Shown in pieces: positions 13,897 to 24,513 of a stretch of 46,786 bases of DNA. Source of the stretch: an uncultured Prevotellaceae bacterium (GTDB lineage Bacteria > Bacteroidota > Bacteroidia > Bacteroidales > Muribaculaceae). The notes beneath the pieces are model-generated. The model saw only the letters and a list, made by a program, of their open reading frames with translations. It searched no databases and was not told where the DNA came from. Position numbers and translations under genes: made by a program. The stretch covers positions 1-46,786 of the forward strand of contig ONJS01000022.1 of assembly GCA_900318205.1 (NCBI GenBank), in the 5' to 3' direction. Numbering within the stretch: position 1 is the first letter of the stretch; every line of letters starts with the position of its first letter.

Positions 13897-13935
13897 ACTA
13901 AAACCTAATATCTAGCGTCTAAAGTCTAACGTCTA
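13897..13935 (-). repeat. Heptameric TAG repeat starting at the amylase stop codon
   Basis: Read on the minus strand, TAG occurs six times with exactly 7-base spacing (units such as TTTAGAC, GTTAGAC). The first TAG (13935-13933) is the stop codon of the GH13 gene. The array fills the gap to the regulator gene. Confidence 0.85.
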
Positions 13936-15822
13936 AACCCCCAAAATAATATCTATCAACGCCGATAAGTCGCCAATCGACAGTTCCCCATCATTATTCA
14001 CGTCGGCTCTCTTGAAGAGGGTACTTTCAACATTGTCGCTCATGATCAGGTCAATCAGGGCGCTAACGTCACCGATGGTCACCTCGCCGTCGCCGTTCAC
14101 GTCACCATGCAGATAAGTCGGGACAGGCTCGCCCTTGACATACACCTGGTAACCGCCAGCGGGAATCGAGAAACTCTGCGTCGAACTGAACGTCACGGGA
14201 ATGGCCGTCAGTCCGTCCGAGATGTTGCTCACGTCGATGGCACGTTTCCACTCGCCGGGCTCAAGACCGGTGACAATCGTGTTCAGCGCGCTGGTACCCA
14301 AGTTGAGCACCACCAGGGCGGTCTGCTCGTTGTGATGGCGGGTATAGGCCACCATATTGCTGTTGCCCGTGGTCAGGAACTTGACCTCACTGGCGCGGTC
14401 ACCGTTGTCAATCAGTGCGTCACAACTGTGCTTCAATGCGGTCAGCGCCTTGACGGTGTTCAGCATCTTGTTATCGACGGTGTTCCAGTTGATGGGCGTG
14501 CGGTTGAAGTAATCCAGTTTGCGATTCATCAGGTAGCCCGTCTCCTGTCCGTTGTAGAGCATGGGCATACCGTACAGGGTAAACGTCAGCACCGTGAAAG
14601 CATACACATTATTACCATACTGCGTGTTCATCGTGCTGTTGTAATTCTGGTCGTGGTTGGTGAGATACACCATGCGGCTGATGTCGATAAAGCGCAGGTC
14701 GCCCACCAGGTTGCGGCACTGGTTCAACACACCGCTGGGATTGGTCTTGTTGTTGACCAGCGCACTCTGGAAGCCCCAGGCGTAGTCATAGTCCCAGCCG
14801 CACACCAGCAGGCGCGACACGCTGTTGGCCATGTCGCCCTCGCCCAGCATGGTGATGGTCTTGCCGGGTTTATACTCCTTCAGGGCCTTGATGGCGCGAG
14901 TCCAGAAGGCGGTGGGAATGGTGTTGCTGCTGATGTAGTCGCAGCGATAGCCGTCGATGTCCACCTGGTCAATCCAGTACTGCATCGCCTCGATCATCGC
15001 CAGCTGGGTCTCTTCCTTGCTGTAATCCAGCTGATAAACGTCGCCATAGCCGTTGGGGCTGGTGAGCGTCGAGTTATAGTAGTTGCGGTGCTGGGTAATC
15101 CACACGTTGTCCTTGGCTGTGTGGTTAGCCACCCAGTCGAGCCACACCTGCATGCCGCGCTGATGAGCGGCGGTGACAAAGGCCTTCAGGTCGGCGATGG
15201 TGCCGAAGTCACTGTTCACGGCATGATAGTCACGCGGGGCATAGGGGCTGCCCAGAGAGCCGATACGGCCCTGGATGCCGCGCGGATGGATGGGCATGAG
15301 CCAGATGATGTCAACGCCCAGGTCCTTGAGGTAGTCCAGACGCTGCTGCGCTGCGGCAAGGGTACCCGCGCTGGTAAAGTTGTACAGGTCAAGCTCATAG
15401 ATGACATGCTGGTTGGGGACAAAGGTGCTCTCCCCTGCCCCGATGACCTTGGTCAACTGGCCCATCACGTAGTAGCCGTGGTTGGTGAACGAACCGTCAA
15501 CACGTCCGCCCTGGTTGTTCCAGGTAAAAATCAGGCCCGAAGGCATTGCCAGCGAGCCGGTATAGGTCCACTTGTAGATCTTGTTGCCACTCTGGGTATC
15601 GCCCATGTAGGTCATTGACGCACCAGGCCAGTTGGTGCCCACATAACTATTGCCGCCGGTGTTGCCTTCCCACACCCAGATCTTGGGCGCATCGGTCACC
15701 GTGCTGTTGGCCTCAAAAAAGACACACACCTCGCTGTCACTGCTCAGCGTCGGCTCATAGACTGCCGACATCGCCAGCAACGATACCATCATCAGGATGG
15801 AGATTGAAAGAATTCGTTTCAT
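13933..15822 (-). CDS. GH13 alpha-amylase-family enzyme with C-terminal dockerin
   Basis: A 629-residue secreted alpha-glucan hydrolase. Start at 15822 gives the signal MKRILSISILMMVSLLAMSA. Residues about 30-125 form a starch-binding-like module (VCVFFEANSTVTDAPKIWVW ... SGLIFTWNNQGG). The catalytic barrel has all three GH13 acids: D295 in DIDGYRCDY, E328 in MLGEGDM and D391 in YLTNHDQN. The last 59 residues are a two-repeat type I dockerin-like module (GDVNGDGEVTIGDVSALIDL and ADVNNDGELSIGDLSALIDI). No lipobox is seen, unlike classical SusG, so surface attachment may rely on the dockerin or the protein may be free (inference). A -7 box TACCTTTG lies at 15852-15859. Start of a probable operon with the regulator and GH97. 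Confidence 0.92.
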   Translation of the reverse strand: MKRILSISILMMVSLLAMSAVYEPTLSSDSEVCVFFEANSTVTDAPKIWVWEGNTGGNSYVGTNWPGASMTYMGDTQSGNKIYKWTYTGSLAMPSGLIFTWNNQGGRVDGSFTNHGYYVMGQLTKVIGAGESTFVPNQHVIYELDLYNFTSAGTLAAAQQRLDYLKDLGVDIIWLMPIHPRGIQGRIGSLGSPYAPRDYHAVNSDFGTIADLKAFVTAAHQRGMQVWLDWVANHTAKDNVWITQHRNYYNSTLTSPNGYGDVYQLDYSKEETQLAMIEAMQYWIDQVDIDGYRCDYISSNTIPTAFWTRAIKALKEYKPGKTITMLGEGDMANSVSRLLVCGWDYDYAWGFQSALVNNKTNPSGVLNQCRNLVGDLRFIDISRMVYLTNHDQNYNSTMNTQYGNNVYAFTVLTFTLYGMPMLYNGQETGYLMNRKLDYFNRTPINWNTVDNKMLNTVKALTALKHSCDALIDNGDRASEVKFLTTGNSNMVAYTRHHNEQTALVVLNLGTSALNTIVTGLEPGEWKRAIDVSNISDGLTAIPVTFSSTQSFSIPAGGYQVYVKGEPVPTYLHGDVNGDGEVTIGDVSALIDLIMSDNVESTLFKRADVNNDGELSIGDLSALIDIILGV

Positions 15823-15851
15823 TTTGGTTATTTTTGGTTGATGATTTTTCA

Positions 15852-15859
15852 CAAAGGTA
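15852..15859 (-). promoter_or_regulatory. -7 box upstream of the amylase operon
   Basis: Minus-strand TACCTTTG matches TAnnTTTG, about 30 bases before the GH13 ATG. No convincing -33 TTTG is visible at the right distance, which would fit an activator-dependent promoter. Confidence 0.5.
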
Positions 15860-15991
15860 CACATAATTAATATACCCCCACAGCCATCAAGCAAAAAATC
15901 TAACCCTCAAAACTAATCAATCTACTGTAAACCATAATTTTACCATCCTCCAGCCAGTCCAAAAATCAAAGTCAATTTCACACCCCCTAGA

Positions 15992-18461: not shown

Positions 18462-18540
18462 ATGTTCTCTACGCCGGCATTGTCCGGATCAGATCCCATG
18501 GGTATGTTCTCAGCCCCCATCTCCCAGGGAGCACCCCAAA
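18462..18540 (-). ncRNA. TPP (thiamine pyrophosphate) riboswitch
   Basis: The minus-strand leader reads GGGGTGC..., GGGGGCTGAGAACATACCC, GATCTGATCCGGACAATGCC and GGCGTAGAGAAC in order. These match the conserved THI-box blocks: GGGGUGC, CUGAGA, ACCC, CUGAU, GGAUAAUGCC-like and GCGUAG. It lies between the promoter at 18558-18565 and a strong hairpin at 18423-18453, about 155 bases before the receptor ATG. Thiamine pyrophosphate binding would switch the receptor gene off. Confidence 0.94.
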
Positions 18541-18557
18541 CTCATTGAATCACGCCG

Positions 18558-18600: not shown

Positions 18601-18690
18601 AGAATTGTTGAGATAAGGGGTTATAGGGGGGTATAGGGGGTGATAGGAGGAGATAGGGTTTTATAGGAGGGGATGGGGAGCGATGGGGAG
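18601..18690. repeat. Left copy of the G-rich repeat flanking the CRISPR-Cas locus
   Basis: Begins AGAATTGTTGAGATAAGGGG and continues as TAG-containing 10-base units (TATAGGGGGG, TGATAGGAGG, AGATAGGGTT, TTATAGGAGG), ending GGATGGGGAGCGATGGGG. A near-identical copy in the same orientation is at 23489-23597. The copies differ by one inserted 10-mer here and about three extra 10-mers on the right. Confidence 0.85.
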
Positions 18691-18987: not shown

Positions 18988-19009
18988 GAGACGCAAAATT
19001 TTGCGTCTC
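18988..19009. repeat. Perfect 22-bp palindrome at the distal end of the CRISPR array
   Basis: GAGACGCAAAA/TTTTGCGTCTC is a perfect palindrome ending 9 bases before the last repeat. It could terminate the pre-crRNA transcript (minus strand), or be a dispersed palindromic element; similar GAGACGCAAAA palindromes occur in intergenic DNA of other bacteria (recollection, unverified). Confidence 0.75.
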
Positions 19010-19018
19010 CCACCTCTG

Positions 19019-19380
19019 GTTGTATCTTCTATTGTTCCTACATCAAACCACAACCGAACATCACGGCATAGCAACTGAGCTGCGTTGTATCTTCTATTGT
19101 TCCTACATCAAACCACAACGTGTGAGAAATAGTTTGGCATAATCTTACGTTGTATCTTCTATTGTTCCTACATCAAACCACAACGCTCTTGCCCCCCTTG
19201 TTCAGTTTGGAAGGTTGTATCTTCTATTGTTCCTACATCAAACCACAACCGACCACCGCAGAGAGTGTATCACGCACATGTTGTATCTTCTATTGTTCCT
19301 ACATCAAACCACAACGTTGACGGCAGCGGCGAGCGCGTCTTTGTGTTGTATCTTCTATTGTTCCTACATCAAACCACAAC
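19019..19380 (-). CRISPR. Type II-C CRISPR array, 6 repeats and 5 spacers
   Basis: Six identical 36-bp repeats, starting GTTGTATCTTCT and ending ATCAAACCACAAC on the plus strand, lie at 19019, 19084, 19149, 19214, 19280 and 19345. Spacers are 29, 29, 29, 30 and 29 bases. Complementarity to the tracrRNA anti-repeat shows that the functional RNA is read from the minus strand (repeat begins GTTGTGGTTTGATGTAGG), the same direction as cas9. The leader is therefore on the high-coordinate side and the spacer at 19316-19344 would be the most recent. No repeat degeneracy is seen at the distal end, and no spacer matched other window sequence that I noticed. Confidence 0.98.
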
Positions 19381-19462
19381 CTAAGTCAAATATTTATCTC
19401 ATTCACAGCAAAATACGCAATAAAACTGGCTTAAGAAGTGGCGATAGATGCAGTATTTGTTA

Positions 19463-19470
19463 CAAAATTA
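19463..19470 (-). promoter_or_regulatory. Candidate pre-crRNA promoter (-7 box) at the end of the cas2 remnant
   Basis: Minus-strand TAATTTTG fits TAnnTTTG exactly and overlaps the stop codon of the cas2 remnant. Transcription would start near 19456, leaving a leader of about 75 bases before the first repeat. The -33 element is poor, so this is tentative. Confidence 0.45.
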
Positions 19471-19629
19471 CCAAATAATTTCTAATTGGACAGGTCCAGA
19501 AATAGCTTTTTTGTTCTTTTCTTTCTTCCCCCAGAAATTGACGATATCTCCATATTGTTTATCGGTCACACTTAGGACGCTGACCTTTCCCTCAACCGTG
19601 ACAAATATTTTCACCCGTTTAGCATGCAC
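19468..19629 (-). pseudogene. cas2: 3' remnant of cas2 (last about 53 codons)
   Basis: The minus-strand frame from 19629 reads VHAKRVKIFVTVEGKVSVLS, then VTDKQYGDIVNFWGKKEKN and about a dozen further residues to a TAA at 19468. This is the C-terminal half of a type II-C Cas2 (compare the family pattern VH.KRVK..LP..G.V.IL.VTDKQ(F/Y)G.I..FWGKK). The N-terminal half, with the ferredoxin-like first strand and the active-site Asp, is missing, and there is no ATG in the frame. It lies exactly where cas2 belongs, between cas1 and the array leader. Confidence 0.85.
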
Positions 19630-19711
19630 CCTCCCTTGAGTTCACCACCAGTTGCCTATACTTAACCGATAGTGCAACTGGTGACGTGAACATCAATGTT
19701 TGCTTTATCAT
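19619..19711 (-). pseudogene. cas1: 5' remnant of cas1 (first about 27 codons), overlapping the cas9 stop
   Basis: ATG at 19711 overlaps the cas9 TGA as ATGA, the usual cas9-cas1 junction. The ORF encodes MIKQTLMFTSPVALSVKYRQ then LVVNSREGAC and a stop. The start matches the N-terminus of Bacteroidetes type II-C Cas1 (pattern MIK.TL.F..P..LS.K..QLVV). After about residue 25 the similarity ends and the DNA enters, out of frame, the cas2 C-terminal coding sequence. The rest of cas1 (about 270 codons, with all catalytic residues) is gone. A 52-base imperfect palindrome (19640-19691) lies within this remnant. Confidence 0.8.
19640..19691. repeat. Long imperfect palindrome between cas9 and the array
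   Basis: GTTCAC, CACCAGTTGC and CTAT on one arm pair with ATAG, GCAACTGGTG and GTGAAC on the other, a 20-bp stem with a 2-base and a 1-base bulge and a 9-base loop. It begins 16 bases after the cas9 stop on the minus strand. No U-tract follows. Confidence 0.8.
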
Positions 19712-22700
19712 CTTAATCTACTAATTTCACCCAAATCATTTAATTCAAAATCAACACCTTCAACAAGTGCTTTGAACTGACCATGAAGCAACAAAATACC
19801 GGATCGGAATTCTTCAGATGAACTAAAAGCACCATTCTTGAGTTTAATCAAACCACTTGGTCTCGCATCTTGATGATGGACCAATGAGATACGGCCATAA
19901 ACACTTGTACCAGATTGAAACGAGTTTAAGCCTATCACTTTATAGAGGCGTTTTTGCAAGTCCTGTTTATCCAGATGCCACAATTCATCAGGATTACTCT
20001 CAAATAATAGCACCATTGTACCAATTTTTAATTGATACTTAAGTTGATATCCGTTCTTGGTATCAGGGACAATATCCTGATTTTCAAAAGCACCATGAAT
20101 ACTCCTGCGATAAAATTTGGCTGCAGCAATGTTACTAACAAGTTCACATACACTTCTTTCCCTGCCATGTTCATCCAGGCCGGCATAGATAGCCATCATA
20201 TAGTTACGGTCATTCTGCACATGGAATTGCTGCTTGTATTCATGCCGAGACTTGTCACGATGTTTCCTGATGTTGATGGGCCTTGTCACAGAGTTGGCAA
20301 ATATCCTCACCTTCTTAATGGGGATTTGCTTTCCCTCATTCATCCAGATAGTTGCTTCGACAGCCGCCTTGAGGCTACCATGGGTTGCTATTGCCTCTTT
20401 GACTTTGCTTTTCACTTCTTCATCAACAATCTTGTCAACGTCTTTGGCATCGAGCATATCTAGGCTCTTGCGGACAACATATCTGATATCGCCATCATGC
20501 TCAATGGCACCATAATAGGTGTCGTTATGGAGTGAACCTCGAGCTGTGTCACCTTGCAAAAAAACATCACCACTTCTCTTTCTCGTATGCTTGGGCATAT
20601 TGTCCTTGGTGTAATGCGCAATCAAGAGTTCATCCTGAATATGTTTCATATCGGCAACAAACGTGGGCCAGGGTTTCTCAAATTGCGGCTTCTTACCCTT
20701 TCCTTGACGATAGTTGTCCTCATCATGATAGAATTGCGCCAATTTATCATACTGCGTCTTGTCAATACAGGCAATGGTGATGGCATCAATGCAGTGGTGG
20801 ACATGGTTGACACGCTCCTTGGCTGTATATTCCTCCTGAATACCCCACATCTTCCTGAAATCGGATGTGGCAATACCCTTGACGATATATACATGCTTGA
20901 AAACCGACTTGAGAAACAAGCGAGCATAGCGGGATATGACACTGATATCCGTGCCTTGACGGCGAGAAAAGCCCTCGGGTACTTCAGTCATCATAAAACG
21001 CAGGTATTTTCCTCTCCAGTAATCGCGTTCAAGTGCCAACAGGTGCCGACGACGGATGATGCTATCTTTTTCATCTTTTGTCGTCGCCCTGCTGCCTTTG
21101 AGTTTGCGGATTCGCTTGCTCAAGTCTTCAGCGCGCTCATTCCAGTGTTCAATGCGCTGCAGCATCTCTTCATGATCGGGCAATTCTGAAGGCAGTTTAG
21201 TCTTCTTTGTTTTGCGGTTATACCCGCTCTCACATAATGTCAAGTTCATCTTGGTGCTATCACCACCCGCGCTCTGGGGGACCGTGTGCTCGATATCATA
21301 TTTGGGATTGGAGCACAGGAAATCTGAGATTCCGATTTGATTGCCTGAGTAAATACAGATATGATTCTGTTCTTCCCATAATTGATACTTCAGGATGTCA
21401 GTATCGGTTGGATTCTCGATGTGTGCATCTTCCTGAATCCTCTTTCTGATTTCCTCTCTGTTTTTCTCTTGCTGGCGTTGCCACTGCTGAATTGCCCATC
21501 GACGATTGGCGTCATTGAGATCTCTTGAGAATTCAATATGTACCTTGGTGTTCTCGTCAATATAGCCCTTAGCAAGTAGCAGATTTACCACCTTGCGCAG
21601 ACGGAACATCGAACGCATTGCCATCGGATTCCTCACGCTGCTGATGCGTGGAGATCCCAACTGATAAATGCCATCCTTATTGGGCAAAACACGTGGGTAC
21701 TGCTCCAGCATTGATGGGTGATAAAGTTTCTGTAATTCTTCAGAACACAAACCATACTCTTCATATCTGTACATCAAGTAATCCTTGAAATAGAGCTCAA
21801 GTGGACGGTCATCATTCTTGCTATCGTAGGCCAAGAGAACGTCAACAGCCTCGTTGATGGCTTTCTGGTGCTCATCCTCGTGTATCATGAAATGCGCTGG
21901 TAACACTGCATCCAAGTTTGCCATAAAGACGGCAAGGGAGTAGATGAGGCCATAGTCCTTGAGGAACGGGAGAATCTTTCGGATAGCTTTAAGACTAAGC
22001 GAAGCATAATCATTGGGCATTGAGATACTGGCAAACCTCTCAGCGTCTTCCTCGTTAAGTTGCAATCGATTTATTGCAAAGTCTTTCAGTTTCTCACTGT
22101 CATCATAAAAGAACAAAGCGTGCCACACATCATTCATTATCTGGAAAGGAGTCTTGCCATCGGCCAATGTATAAACCTCACAAACGCCCTCCAGCCAATT
22201 ATCACCAAAGATGCCTTCAAGTTGTGCAGTTACGATGCTGATGGGGACAGGTGTATCCATTTGATAGTTGAACTGAAAAGGTTTATCATCCTTGTCACGG
22301 AAATACATGTATTTATTCTTTCCAGCGAGTTTCTTGGCTATCTCCTCAAAATTAAAGGTATGCTTGCTCTTGCGATATTTCTTGAACAAAGGTAAAACGG
22401 TCGCTTTTTCATCACCGTTCAGATAGCGCAACTGTGCGTCTTGGGGCGTCTTGATTTTGATGTTGTTCAAAAAACTGTAAAGTCGGAATTCCTCATACAA
22501 GGGATGTGATGCCGGGCATCTTGCCTTGCCTTTCTCAAAAGTACATGTTCCGACAGTCCCTTTCTGAGATTTCAGCGGACGCTGAAAGAAAATGGCTCTT
22601 TCAAGTTTCTTCACCAAGTCCTCGGGCAACTGCTGTTTTTCACAAATAGCATAAAACTCATTAAGGTAATGCTCATTGCGTGCGGTATAATGCCCTCTAA

Positions 22701-23316
22701 TCTTCTGACCAGATTGATAGAGTTGATAAAAGTATTCCCCCAAGTATTGGCAACCAGCCTGGTTCATCTCGGCAGTCAGTTTGCTGATACCCTCACTGAC
22801 GGCACCATCGGATGCTTTTGTCGTTTCCTTGCGGTTGCTCAAAAAACCACGTCGCTGATTGATGTGGTAAAGCGCACGCCCCAAGATGTAACGTTGTGTA
22901 AGGTTGTTTAAATCCAATTTCTGTGTCAAGCAAATGTGCCTGAACTGGTATGGATTGACATTATTCTTATCCTCAGTGAGCTGCCATGCCAAGAACTCCT
23001 CGTCGTGTGGGTAAATCTTTTTTAGTCTCCAATCTCTCAATTGTCTCGAATCCACAGGAGGACACAAGCGATTCTCTACAAGCACAGTTAACAGGCGAAT
23101 CTTTCTCACCTTACGGCGCCAGTATTGCCTGCGTAAAGCACGGTGAGTTGTTCGCTCTGCCGCCTTGGACAACTCTATTCCTTTTTCTATCTTTACCCCT
23201 TCGGTAAAGATATTAGTACCCTTGTGCAACAGTCGGGTTTCACCCTTGTCGTTCTTTTCAATAATAGCCCAACCAAGACTATTGGTACCAGTATCTATTC
23301 CTAGTATTCTTTCCAT
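19708..23316 (-). CDS. cas9: Cas9 endonuclease, type II-C
   Basis: A 1,202-residue RNA-guided DNA endonuclease that cuts invading DNA using crRNA and tracrRNA. RuvC-I is ILGIDTGTNSLGWAI (D8), followed by the Arg-rich bridge helix (RTTHRALRRQYWRRKVRKIR). RuvC-II is VHIEFSRDL (E595). The HNH domain has YDIEHTVPQSAGGD (H677) and ESGYNRKTK (N700). RuvC-III is NHVHHCIDAI (H840/H841, D844). All expected catalytic residues are present, so it should be nuclease-active. Length is within the II-C range. The start at 23316 begins directly at RuvC-I. A promoter lies at 23344-23374. Its stop overlaps the ATG of a truncated cas1; cas1 and cas2 are only remnants. The gene looks more AT-rich than the flanking genes, suggesting transfer (not computed). 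Confidence 0.98.
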   Translation of the reverse strand: MERILGIDTGTNSLGWAIIEKNDKGETRLLHKGTNIFTEGVKIEKGIELSKAAERTTHRALRRQYWRRKVRKIRLLTVLVENRLCPPVDSRQLRDWRLKKIYPHDEEFLAWQLTEDKNNVNPYQFRHICLTQKLDLNNLTQRYILGRALYHINQRRGFLSNRKETTKASDGAVSEGISKLTAEMNQAGCQYLGEYFYQLYQSGQKIRGHYTARNEHYLNEFYAICEKQQLPEDLVKKLERAIFFQRPLKSQKGTVGTCTFEKGKARCPASHPLYEEFRLYSFLNNIKIKTPQDAQLRYLNGDEKATVLPLFKKYRKSKHTFNFEEIAKKLAGKNKYMYFRDKDDKPFQFNYQMDTPVPISIVTAQLEGIFGDNWLEGVCEVYTLADGKTPFQIMNDVWHALFFYDDSEKLKDFAINRLQLNEEDAERFASISMPNDYASLSLKAIRKILPFLKDYGLIYSLAVFMANLDAVLPAHFMIHEDEHQKAINEAVDVLLAYDSKNDDRPLELYFKDYLMYRYEEYGLCSEELQKLYHPSMLEQYPRVLPNKDGIYQLGSPRISSVRNPMAMRSMFRLRKVVNLLLAKGYIDENTKVHIEFSRDLNDANRRWAIQQWQRQQEKNREEIRKRIQEDAHIENPTDTDILKYQLWEEQNHICIYSGNQIGISDFLCSNPKYDIEHTVPQSAGGDSTKMNLTLCESGYNRKTKKTKLPSELPDHEEMLQRIEHWNERAEDLSKRIRKLKGSRATTKDEKDSIIRRRHLLALERDYWRGKYLRFMMTEVPEGFSRRQGTDISVISRYARLFLKSVFKHVYIVKGIATSDFRKMWGIQEEYTAKERVNHVHHCIDAITIACIDKTQYDKLAQFYHDEDNYRQGKGKKPQFEKPWPTFVADMKHIQDELLIAHYTKDNMPKHTRKRSGDVFLQGDTARGSLHNDTYYGAIEHDGDIRYVVRKSLDMLDAKDVDKIVDEEVKSKVKEAIATHGSLKAAVEATIWMNEGKQIPIKKVRIFANSVTRPINIRKHRDKSRHEYKQQFHVQNDRNYMMAIYAGLDEHGRERSVCELVSNIAAAKFYRRSIHGAFENQDIVPDTKNGYQLKYQLKIGTMVLLFESNPDELWHLDKQDLQKRLYKVIGLNSFQSGTSVYGRISLVHHQDARPSGLIKLKNGAFSSSEEFRSGILLLHGQFKALVEGVDFELNDLGEISRLR

Positions 23317-23343: not shown

Positions 23344-23374
23344 TAAAATTACGATAATTCTTTGAGGTTACAAA
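23344..23374 (-). promoter_or_regulatory. cas9 promoter, overlapping the tracrRNA promoter
   Basis: Minus-strand TTTG (23374-23371), 19 bases, TAATTTTA (23351-23344, one mismatch to TAnnTTTG). Its -33 box lies inside the oppositely directed tracrRNA promoter. Confidence 0.6.
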
Positions 23375-23391
23375 AAAACATTGTAATTTTG
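23361..23391 (+). promoter_or_regulatory. tracrRNA promoter
   Basis: Plus-strand TTTG (23361-23364), 19 bases, TAATTTTG (23384-23391) is an exact Bacteroidetes promoter. Transcription would start around 23397, immediately before the anti-repeat. Confidence 0.8.
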
Positions 23392-23396
23392 CACCC

Positions 23397-23479
23397 ATAA
23401 GATTCCTACATCTTATCACAATAAGGCCATCATGGCCGAAGGGTAAAACCTATACTCCCGCTTCGGTGGGAGTTTTTTT
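23397..23479 (+). ncRNA. tracrRNA
   Basis: The RNA from about 23397 begins with an anti-repeat: TTCCTACATC (23403-23412) pairs perfectly with GATGTAGGAA of the crRNA repeat. After a 4-base internal loop, CACAA (23417-23421) pairs with TTGTG at the repeat's spacer-proximal end. Next comes AATAAGGC-type nexus sequence with a GGCC-ATCAT-GGCC stem, then the terminator ACTCCCG-CTTC-GGTGGGAGT followed by seven T. This order of anti-repeat, nexus and terminator is that of known Cas9 tracrRNAs. It is transcribed divergently from cas9. Confidence 0.92.
23454..23479 (+). terminator. tracrRNA terminator
   Basis: ACTCCC/GGGAGT stem closing a short loop (GCTTCGGT region), followed by TTTTTTT. Classical Rho-independent terminator. 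Confidence 0.92.
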
Positions 23480-23488
23480 ATTCTAGTA

Positions 23489-23597
23489 AGAATTGTTGAG
23501 ATGAGGGGTTATAGGGGGTGATAGGAGGAGATAGGGTTTTATAGGAGGAGATAAAGGGGGATAGGGTTTTATAGGAGGGGATGGGGAGTGATGGGGG
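23489..23597. repeat. Right copy of the G-rich repeat flanking the CRISPR-Cas locus
   Basis: Starts AGAATTGTTGAGATGAGGGG and continues with 10-base TAG or TAA units to GGATGGGGAGTGATGGGG. Same orientation as the copy at 18601-18690, and it begins 10 bases after the tracrRNA terminator. Together the two copies bracket the whole array-cas9-tracrRNA unit. Confidence 0.85.
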
Positions 23598-23623: not shown

Positions 23624-23676
23624 CGAGCCCTATCTCATAGGAAGTAGGCCGAACTCATTGAGTTACGCCAAAAGGT
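23624..23676 (-). other. Decayed copy of the TPP-riboswitch leader (5' half)
   Basis: This stretch aligns with 18511-18564, the promoter-proximal part of the TPP riboswitch leader, in the same orientation at roughly three-quarters identity by eye. The shared core is AACTCATTGA then ACGCC then AAAGGT. The functional blocks are lost: the CUGAGA block reads CTCGAG, GGGGTGC reads GGCCTAC, and the -7 box is broken. No gene follows it on that strand, so it is probably a relic. Confidence 0.5.
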
Positions 23677-23717: not shown

Positions 23718-23763
23718 CATGATTAACCACAACAACTCATCATTCACACCTGATTATTACCAA

Positions 23764-24513
23764 ATGGCAAAGCTGAATCGTGATTTCTTGCCCCAAGACG
23801 GGCAATACGAGGCCCTGATGGTCTATAAGAAGTCGGAGTGCATCTGCGATGTGACGGACTACTTCTGCAAAACCTTCTTGGACCGCCATCGCGACCGTAC
23901 CGTTGACCAGATGGTGCAAGCCGCTCGCAGCGGCAAACAGAATATCGTCGAGGGCACTGCCGCCTCTGCCACCAGCAAAGAGACCGAAATCAAACTGCTC
24001 AACGTCGCCAAAGCCAGCCACCAAGAGTTGCTCGAGGACTACAAGGACTACCTGGCCCACCACAACCTGGAGCAGTGGAAATCCACCGACCGCCGCTACC
24101 GCCACACGCGTCAGCGTTGCCGCGAACACAACGACCGCGAATACTACAACACCATCCTGCCCAACTGCACCGATGAGATGATCTGCAATATTGCCATCAC
24201 CCTCATCTGCCAGACCGACGTCATGCTCCGGAACCTCATCGAGTATCACAAGCAGGCCTTCCTCGAGCAAGGCGGTATCCGCGAAGAAATGACCCGCGGC
24301 CGCCTCGCCTACCGCCGAGAGCACCCGCAGCAGCAACCCGCAGCTACCACCACAGCCCTCTCGCGCTGTGAAGCCGAACTCACCGCCCGAGAACAACAAC
24401 TCGCCGCCCGCGAGGCAGCCTTGACCGCCCGCGAGCAGGAGCTGACCATCAGGGAACAAGAATTAGCAAGACTCCTGCACCTGGCAGGGGAGATAGGGGA
24501 TGATGGGACATGA
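23764..24513 (+). CDS. Four-helix-bundle suffix-domain protein with C-terminal coiled coil
   Basis: A 249-residue protein of the S23-like four-helix-bundle group (TIGR04258-type, common in Bacteroidales, function unknown). The helical domain spans about residues 10-190 (EALMVYKKSECICDVTDYFC, DQMVQAARSGKQNIVEGTAA, TEIKLLNVAKASHQELLEDY). A Pro/Gln linker leads to a coiled coil of repeated TAREQEL-like heptads (about 200-240). An ATG at 23719 is in frame but lies directly against the -7 box, before the expected transcript start, so 23764 is chosen. The last codons (GEIGDDGT) and the stop are already part of the GATGATAGGA repeat array. It adjoins the CRISPR flank but has no known Cas link. Confidence 0.8.
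   Translation: MAKLNRDFLPQDGQYEALMVYKKSECICDVTDYFCKTFLDRHRDRTVDQMVQAARSGKQNIVEGTAASATSKETEIKLLNVAKASHQELLEDYKDYLAHHNLEQWKSTDRRYRHTRQRCREHNDREYYNTILPNCTDEMICNIAITLICQTDVMLRNLIEYHKQAFLEQGGIREEMTRGRLAYRREHPQQQPAATTTALSRCEAELTAREQQLAAREAALTAREQELTIREQELARLLHLAGEIGDDGT

Follow-up and report, generated by a model that had tools for sequence, protein, structure and literature searches.

Recurrent deletion of cas1 and cas2 from type II-C CRISPR-Cas loci related to that of an uncultured Prevotellaceae bacterium

To whole-gene annotation, the CRISPR-Cas locus considered here is a lone cas9 beside an array, and its history is missed. What became of its adaptation genes, and did related loci fare any differently? 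We addressed these questions in the window, that is, a stretch of 46,786 nucleotides (contig ONJS01000022.1) from an uncultured Prevotellaceae bacterium, and in related Cas9 loci, which are referred to by L numbers. The type II-C cas9 of the window (19708..23316, minus strand) encodes an intact protein of 1202 aa (TIGR01865, E 7.9e-138), and no open reading frame of 90 aa or more lies between this gene and the array.

The scar between cas9 and the array

On the minus strand, MIKQTLMFTSPVALSVKYRQLVV is read from an ATG at 19711 which shares the letters ATGA with the cas9 stop codon. This segment (19631..19711, minus strand) corresponds to the first ~27 codons of cas1, as indicated both by alignment to locus L029 and by a tblastn search with the Cas1 of L011, residues 1-27 of which were matched (59% identity, E 9e-5). 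It is followed, in another frame, by the last 53 codons and the stop of cas2 (19468..19629, minus strand), reading VHAKRVKIFV...QLEIIW and terminating at 19470-19468; here, the Cas2 query of L011 was matched at residues 63-110 (71% identity, E 2e-17), and the two tblastn matches adjoin each other. The two closest Cas9 relatives, L010 and L029 (84-85% Cas9 identity), carry both cas1 and cas2 at the same place. A one-gap alignment to L029 yields a deletion of 988 bp with the junction at 19629..19632 (minus strand), that is, at about 19630 after conversion of the alignment position into window coordinates by hand, with an ambiguity of one base. Thus, tblastn and alignment agree with the proposal of an earlier note on this DNA that a single internal deletion of about 1 kb in a cas9-cas1-cas2-array operon joined the start of cas1 to the end of cas2 downstream of an intact cas9, and the coordinates, size and junction range given there were right. 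As a side observation, cas1 of L010 contains an in-frame premature stop (L010 8349-8351), so that two of the three loci of this small clade may have lost acquisition; by Cas9, L010 is the relative closest to the window.

The profile search that the same note had suggested was less rewarding: the two remnant peptides had no match in NCBIfam, TIGR03639 and TIGR01573 included, even at an E value of 10. Given that the full-length L029 proteins match these two models strongly (2.9e-88 and 2.4e-17, respectively), the remnants are apparently too short, and their homology to Cas1 and Cas2 rests on tblastn comparison with the relatives.

The genome assembly from which the window derives is a draft of 3.62 Mb in 53 contigs, estimated as 94.8% complete. 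At E<=1e-3, none of the models TIGR03639, PF01867 and TIGR01573 had a match in it, and none of the other contigs offers a cas1 or cas2 that could act in trans, consistent with the view that acquisition has been lost. Among 14 control genomes, the three models were matched in 7, 9 and 7, respectively, and none of the seven TIGR03639 matches exceeded the cut-off of that model.

Retained interference parts and age of the deletion

The interference parts, which had been described as intact, are so at the sequence level, and this applies to cas9, the tracrRNA, the array and its putative promoter. No lesion is present in cas9, and the Cas9 motifs GIDTGTNS, HIEFSRDL, DIEHTVPQS and HHCIDAIT, which we take to be RuvC-I, RuvC-II, HNH and RuvC-III, respectively, align with solved Cas9s. 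The tracrRNA (23393..23480, plus strand; fold z-score -4.3) comprises an anti-repeat (23401-23426) and a terminator hairpin (23454-23479) and follows a putative promoter, TTTG-N19-TAATTTTG (23361..23391, plus strand), with the -7 box at 23384-23391; a search of Rfam returned no match to it up to E 1. Pairing of the anti-repeat with the 5' half of the cas-strand repeat leaves five mismatches in 21 positions, compared to 9 or 10 in the other orientations tried, suggesting that transcription of the crRNA should follow the cas strand and enter the array from the leader side. The leader (19381..19462, minus strand) contains a CCACTTCTTA block at 19441-19432, and the array (19019..19380, minus strand) consists of six identical 36-nt repeats separated by five spacers of 29-30 nt; no further copies of the repeat were found in the genome with up to three mismatches. 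Just past the last repeat lies a perfect inverted repeat (18988..19009, no strand assigned), possibly a terminator.

Among the viral contigs searched, a match was obtained for one of the five spacers. Spacer 4 (19120..19148, minus strand) is identical in 27 of 29 bases to contig IMGVR_UViG_3300021256_000184, with both mismatches at the 5' end and a 3' flank of GACAGCAACG; the viral gene at this target presumably resembles that of a phage replication-initiation protein. For the remaining four spacers, no identical stretch of 26 bases turned up in the viral contigs, and spacer 4, the one checked for self-targeting, has no second site in the window genome with up to three mismatches. Outside the locus, we noted a protein (23719-24513, plus strand) adjoining it with a weak match, below the Pfam cut-off, to 23S rRNA-intervening-sequence proteins, and an alpha-amylase with a C-terminal dockerin domain (13933-15894, minus strand) adjoining a TonB-dependent receptor.

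Taken together, the window contains a Cas9 effector, a tracrRNA with an anti-repeat and an array beside cas genes, as expected of type II-C, and of the cas1 and cas2 that belong to a complete locus of this subtype it has remnants only. Judged by these features, it is a derived type II-C locus without adaptation genes rather than a complete one.

How old the deletion is can be gauged from the remnants, both of which are free of internal stops. Changes specific to the window number eight synonymous and no nonsynonymous in the cas2 remnant and five synonymous and three nonsynonymous in that of cas1, counts which are based on few codons and leave out those that differ in all three loci (13 and 3). 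Between the cas9 genes of the window and its relatives, dS is about 2 and dN/dS is 0.047; this low ratio spans the entire branch and says little on the time after the deletion. That the remnants still look constrained despite such distant relatives suggests that the deletion occurred late on the window branch and is recent, as the earlier note had held.

We consider it very probable that the scar represents one recent deletion of about 1 kb which removed cas1 and cas2 from a tracrRNA-cas9-cas1-cas2-array operon and left tracrRNA, cas9 and array intact in sequence. Such a locus would still make crRNA and Cas9 and cut the targets that it remembers, and would be unable to add spacers without cas1 and cas2, so that the window may be regarded as carrying a frozen immune memory.

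Recurrence among related loci and limits of the deletions

The scar had been treated as a lone case, whereas it is one of 12 deleted loci that we found. Cas9 loci were gathered from a species-genome scan (40 loci) and further genome searches; 15 duplicates and eight loci without a match near the Cas9 C-terminus were put aside and L041 was restored, leaving out L005-L009, L047 and L091 for lack of that match. Subtraction of five contig-end loci (L046, L056, L057, L090 and L092) from the resulting 65 gave 60 assessable ones. Deletions in cas1-cas2 were detected in 12 of these 60 (11 of 59 without the window), namely, the window, L012, L014, L020, L022, L033, L035, L038, L042, L044, L070 and L094. 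By source, they account for 9 of 38 loci from the species-genome scan and for 0/1, 0/8 and 2/12 from other searches, plus the window; the last of these fractions comes from a genus picked because it holds L035, and one final search added no new loci. A small lesion in cas1-cas2 is confined to L010, with its premature cas1 stop, and the other 47 loci have a stop-free match to each of cas1 and cas2, the full cas2 match of L039 coming from a separate search, as the stretch in the main comparison ended early. Separately, the G464 genome contains two related II-C loci (L087 and L093), each with complete cas1-cas2.

The 11 deletions that could be placed span 575-1115 bp, and no two of them have both ends in common. 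Their ends were set against one hand-picked relative each, those of L020, L044 and L094 being approximate owing to distant relatives, and L038 was assigned no breakpoints. The sister loci L033 and L042 each retain a part that is missing from the other. On the Cas9 tree of 59 rows, which holds 11 deleted loci and leaves out L094 and the five contig-end loci, nine state changes are needed, at least eight of them forced by well supported branches. We infer that related bacteria lost adaptation convergently, the deletions being limited on one side by the stop of cas9 and on the other by the promoter of the array.

Could cas1 and cas2 be present in the organism and have been collapsed out of the assembly? 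The draft state of the window genome, with its 53 contigs, would allow for this, but just one base is common to both sides of the junction, the other contigs are devoid of Cas1 and Cas2 matches, and a similar lesion is found in L035, which makes such an artefact very unlikely. More generally, two of the deletions belong to cultured strains, namely, P. communis E15-14, the genome of which is complete, and P. disiens JCM 6334; that L035 lies on the complete chromosome of an isolate and L044 in a cultured strain argues against assembly error as a general cause. The remaining ten deleted loci, metagenome assemblies among them, come from genomes in which single assembly errors are possible.

Adaptation might instead be provided in trans by another CRISPR system. 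There is a precedent in F. columnare, the VI-B system of which uses the Cas1 of a II-C system (PMC8092290). Of nine deleted-locus genomes searched for Cas1 (those of L070 and L094 being left out), three, namely, those of L033, L038 and L044, contain further matches. However, no Cas1 match was obtained in the genomes of the window, L012, L014, L020, L022 and L042, and the sole match in that of L035 is its own remnant, so that trans supply appears highly improbable.

An even more remote alternative is that the cas1-cas2 fusion, or the C-terminal piece of cas2, is a working small protein. L020 is indeed a single in-frame fusion, and the cas2 piece of the window is open and lacks window-specific nonsynonymous changes. 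Nevertheless, a recent deletion explains the open frame, and the retained part of cas2 varies between next to nothing (L070) and the whole gene (L014, L044 and L094). Junction frames also differ between loci; together with the differing retained parts, this led us to reject a functional fusion protein.

The left ends of the deletions fall 4-246 bp after cas9 and the right ends 106-603 bp before repeat 1. On average, the placed deletions (n=11) remove 76% of the stretch between the cas9 stop and the array promoter, compared to the 33% expected for two random end points, and none of 200,000 draws came up to the mean of the actual deletions; this null model is naive, because stepwise erosion, of which L022 shows signs, would give an equal result. 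The sparing of the last ~100 bp by the breakpoints is not significant on its own under a uniform model (~0.4, by hand calculation), and we dropped avoidance of the leader as proof of selection.

What lies at the right-hand limit is a putative promoter. The primary promoter of Bacteroidota has a -33 box, TTTG. Its -7 consensus, TAnnTTTG, is quoted in PMC10309648. At 19463..19470 (minus strand), overlapping the cas2 stop codon, the window carries TAATTTTG, a putative -7 box of this form. TAnnTTTG precedes repeat 1 in 55 of the 56 loci scored (53 from the main scoring plus L021 and L071, scored separately; L004, L027, L039 and L048, with no array in place or in the stretch examined, are unscored for array or box), at a distance of 90-94 bp in 44 loci and 109-134 bp in 11; its background frequency is 0.00056 per position. 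As a rule, the box overlaps the stop codon of cas2 or comes immediately after it; in the Alistipes loci L036 and L045, it lies apart from this codon. Of the 12 deleted loci, 11 retain the box. The deletion of L070 halts ~13 bp short of it after removing nearly all of cas2, whereas that of L038, the sole scored locus without the box, runs through the leader and leaves three degenerate repeats.

Codon usage is consistent with a role of these nucleotides as DNA. In 29 intact loci, both terminal Phe codons of cas2 are invariably TTT (58 of 58; no probability can be attached to this because the loci are related), whereas the cas9 genes of these loci show no preference between TTT and TTC (632:632), which points to selection on DNA. 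In L071 (the same as L106, G430:C11), a joint inversion has turned leader and array around downstream of cas2, with cas9-cas1-cas2 intact, and the box, 93 bp before repeat 1 as counted by eye, has moved with the array away from cas2, suggesting that it belongs to the former. Furthermore, the tracrRNA anti-repeat is preceded by the same box, at 11-23 nt, in 46 of the 49 loci scored; the nine deleted loci in this set all have it (L022, L038 and L094 were left out of this scoring). Of the Bacteroidota promoter elements, the -7 box is found at the array, but a -33 TTTG upstream of it is not conserved; a TTTG is present at the tracrRNA of the window. These observations suggest that TAnnTTTG is the array promoter. 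If the array is transcribed from this promoter, deletions that leave it working would have to spare the end of cas2.

Fate of the deleted loci and relation to known systems

Deleted loci are found at the tips of the tree only; none of 11 falls on internal branches, which make up 29% of the tree length (P 0.023 if losses persisted, with distinct junctions counted as separate events). Among seven readable cas1 remnants, only that of L022 contains a stop, suggesting that most events are young; L022 also displays further loss inside cas2 and is left with two repeats. Arrays have a median of 8.5 repeats in the 12 deleted loci compared to 17 in 44 others (p 0.058; p 0.041 without 11 censored loci), although the repeat-chain counter undercounts some of them (L034, 2 versus 13; L071, 0, being inverted); shorter arrays are merely suggestive and were not accepted as proof of frozen memory. 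Damaged cas9 genes occur in two deleted loci, L044 and L094, showing that interference is not kept everywhere, and in two with complete cas1-cas2, L016 and L041. More broadly, internal stops or frameshifts in cas9 were noted in L016, L041, L044, L056 and L092/L094, in which sequencing errors are possible. These data are compatible with a course in which learning is frequently lost and the entire locus is then lost or replaced; learning-deficient loci arise often and appear to be short-lived.

Some of these features would also be expected if the whole locus were dying, with the deletion a step of neutral decay and the array promoter merely not yet struck. This agrees with the scar and parts from the preferred explanation solely on whether interference is kept. 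Consistent with decay are the frameshifted cas9 of L044 and L094, the state of L038 (promoter and leader gone, three degenerate repeats) and L022 (stop in the cas1 remnant, additional cas2 loss, two repeats), and the confinement of deleted loci to tips. Against it stand the intact array box in 11 of 12 deleted loci, the tracrRNA box in nine of nine scored, the lesion-free cas9 of the window, and the occurrence of deletions in 12 of 60 cas1-cas2 pairs but of a small lesion in L010 only. On balance, we consider neutral decay possible though rather doubtful. A more far-reaching reading would make the adaptation module of Prevotella-type II-C loci a repeatedly discarded cassette, lost through deletions bounded by the cas9 stop and the array promoter over the cas2 stop, with near-complete loss each time rather than small lesions, and with learning-deficient loci frequent yet vanishing before they found lineages; this broader generalization we regard as evenly poised.

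The tracrRNA-cas9-array locus of the window is flanked by G-rich direct repeats (18602-18688 and 23490-23596; 18515-18556 and 23628-23669), the 32-base core of which is present in two copies in the window genome, both at this locus. Flank-to-flank matches were observed in six of 33 loci, namely, the deleted window, L012, L014 and L020 and the intact L031 and L032. Such repeats might allow excision of the entire locus.

In its Cas9 family, tracrRNA, repeat type, leader and gene order, the window resembles complete type II-C relatives, such as L029 and L011, and differs from them in having remnants only of cas1 and cas2. Array promoters lie within the repeats in type II-C systems of Campylobacter. 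The same is cited for Neisseria in PMC8092290 and PMC10309648, where Flavobacterium arrays are likewise proposed to have repeat-borne promoters, with transcription running in the direction of the variable end. Here, in the same subtype, the anti-repeat places the crRNA on the cas strand, and TAnnTTTG is located at the cas2 stop; for a II-C system of Riemerella, promoters have been predicted to lie within the leader (PMC5006608). Effectors with arrays and without Cas1-Cas2 are known from type V-U, type IV, Tn7-borne type I and many type VI systems (PMC6452270 and PMC8092290). Unlike those, the present loci underwent recent internal deletions, several times, which left remnants; the lineage is an ordinary II-C one, and no supplier in trans is seen in the window genome. 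Open-licence full texts yielded no report of such a deletion series in one II-C lineage, nor of an array promoter on the cas2 stop.

Taken alone, the scar of the window is a modest finding; the recurrence of the deletions and their limits are the interesting part. In effect, nature has mapped the array promoter by deletion, which puts the putative promoter over the cas2 stop codon. Separate natural deletions that remove learning and leave the machinery of memory, in related bacteria with intact sister loci, make it testable whether the cost of CRISPR immunity lies in learning or in remembering.
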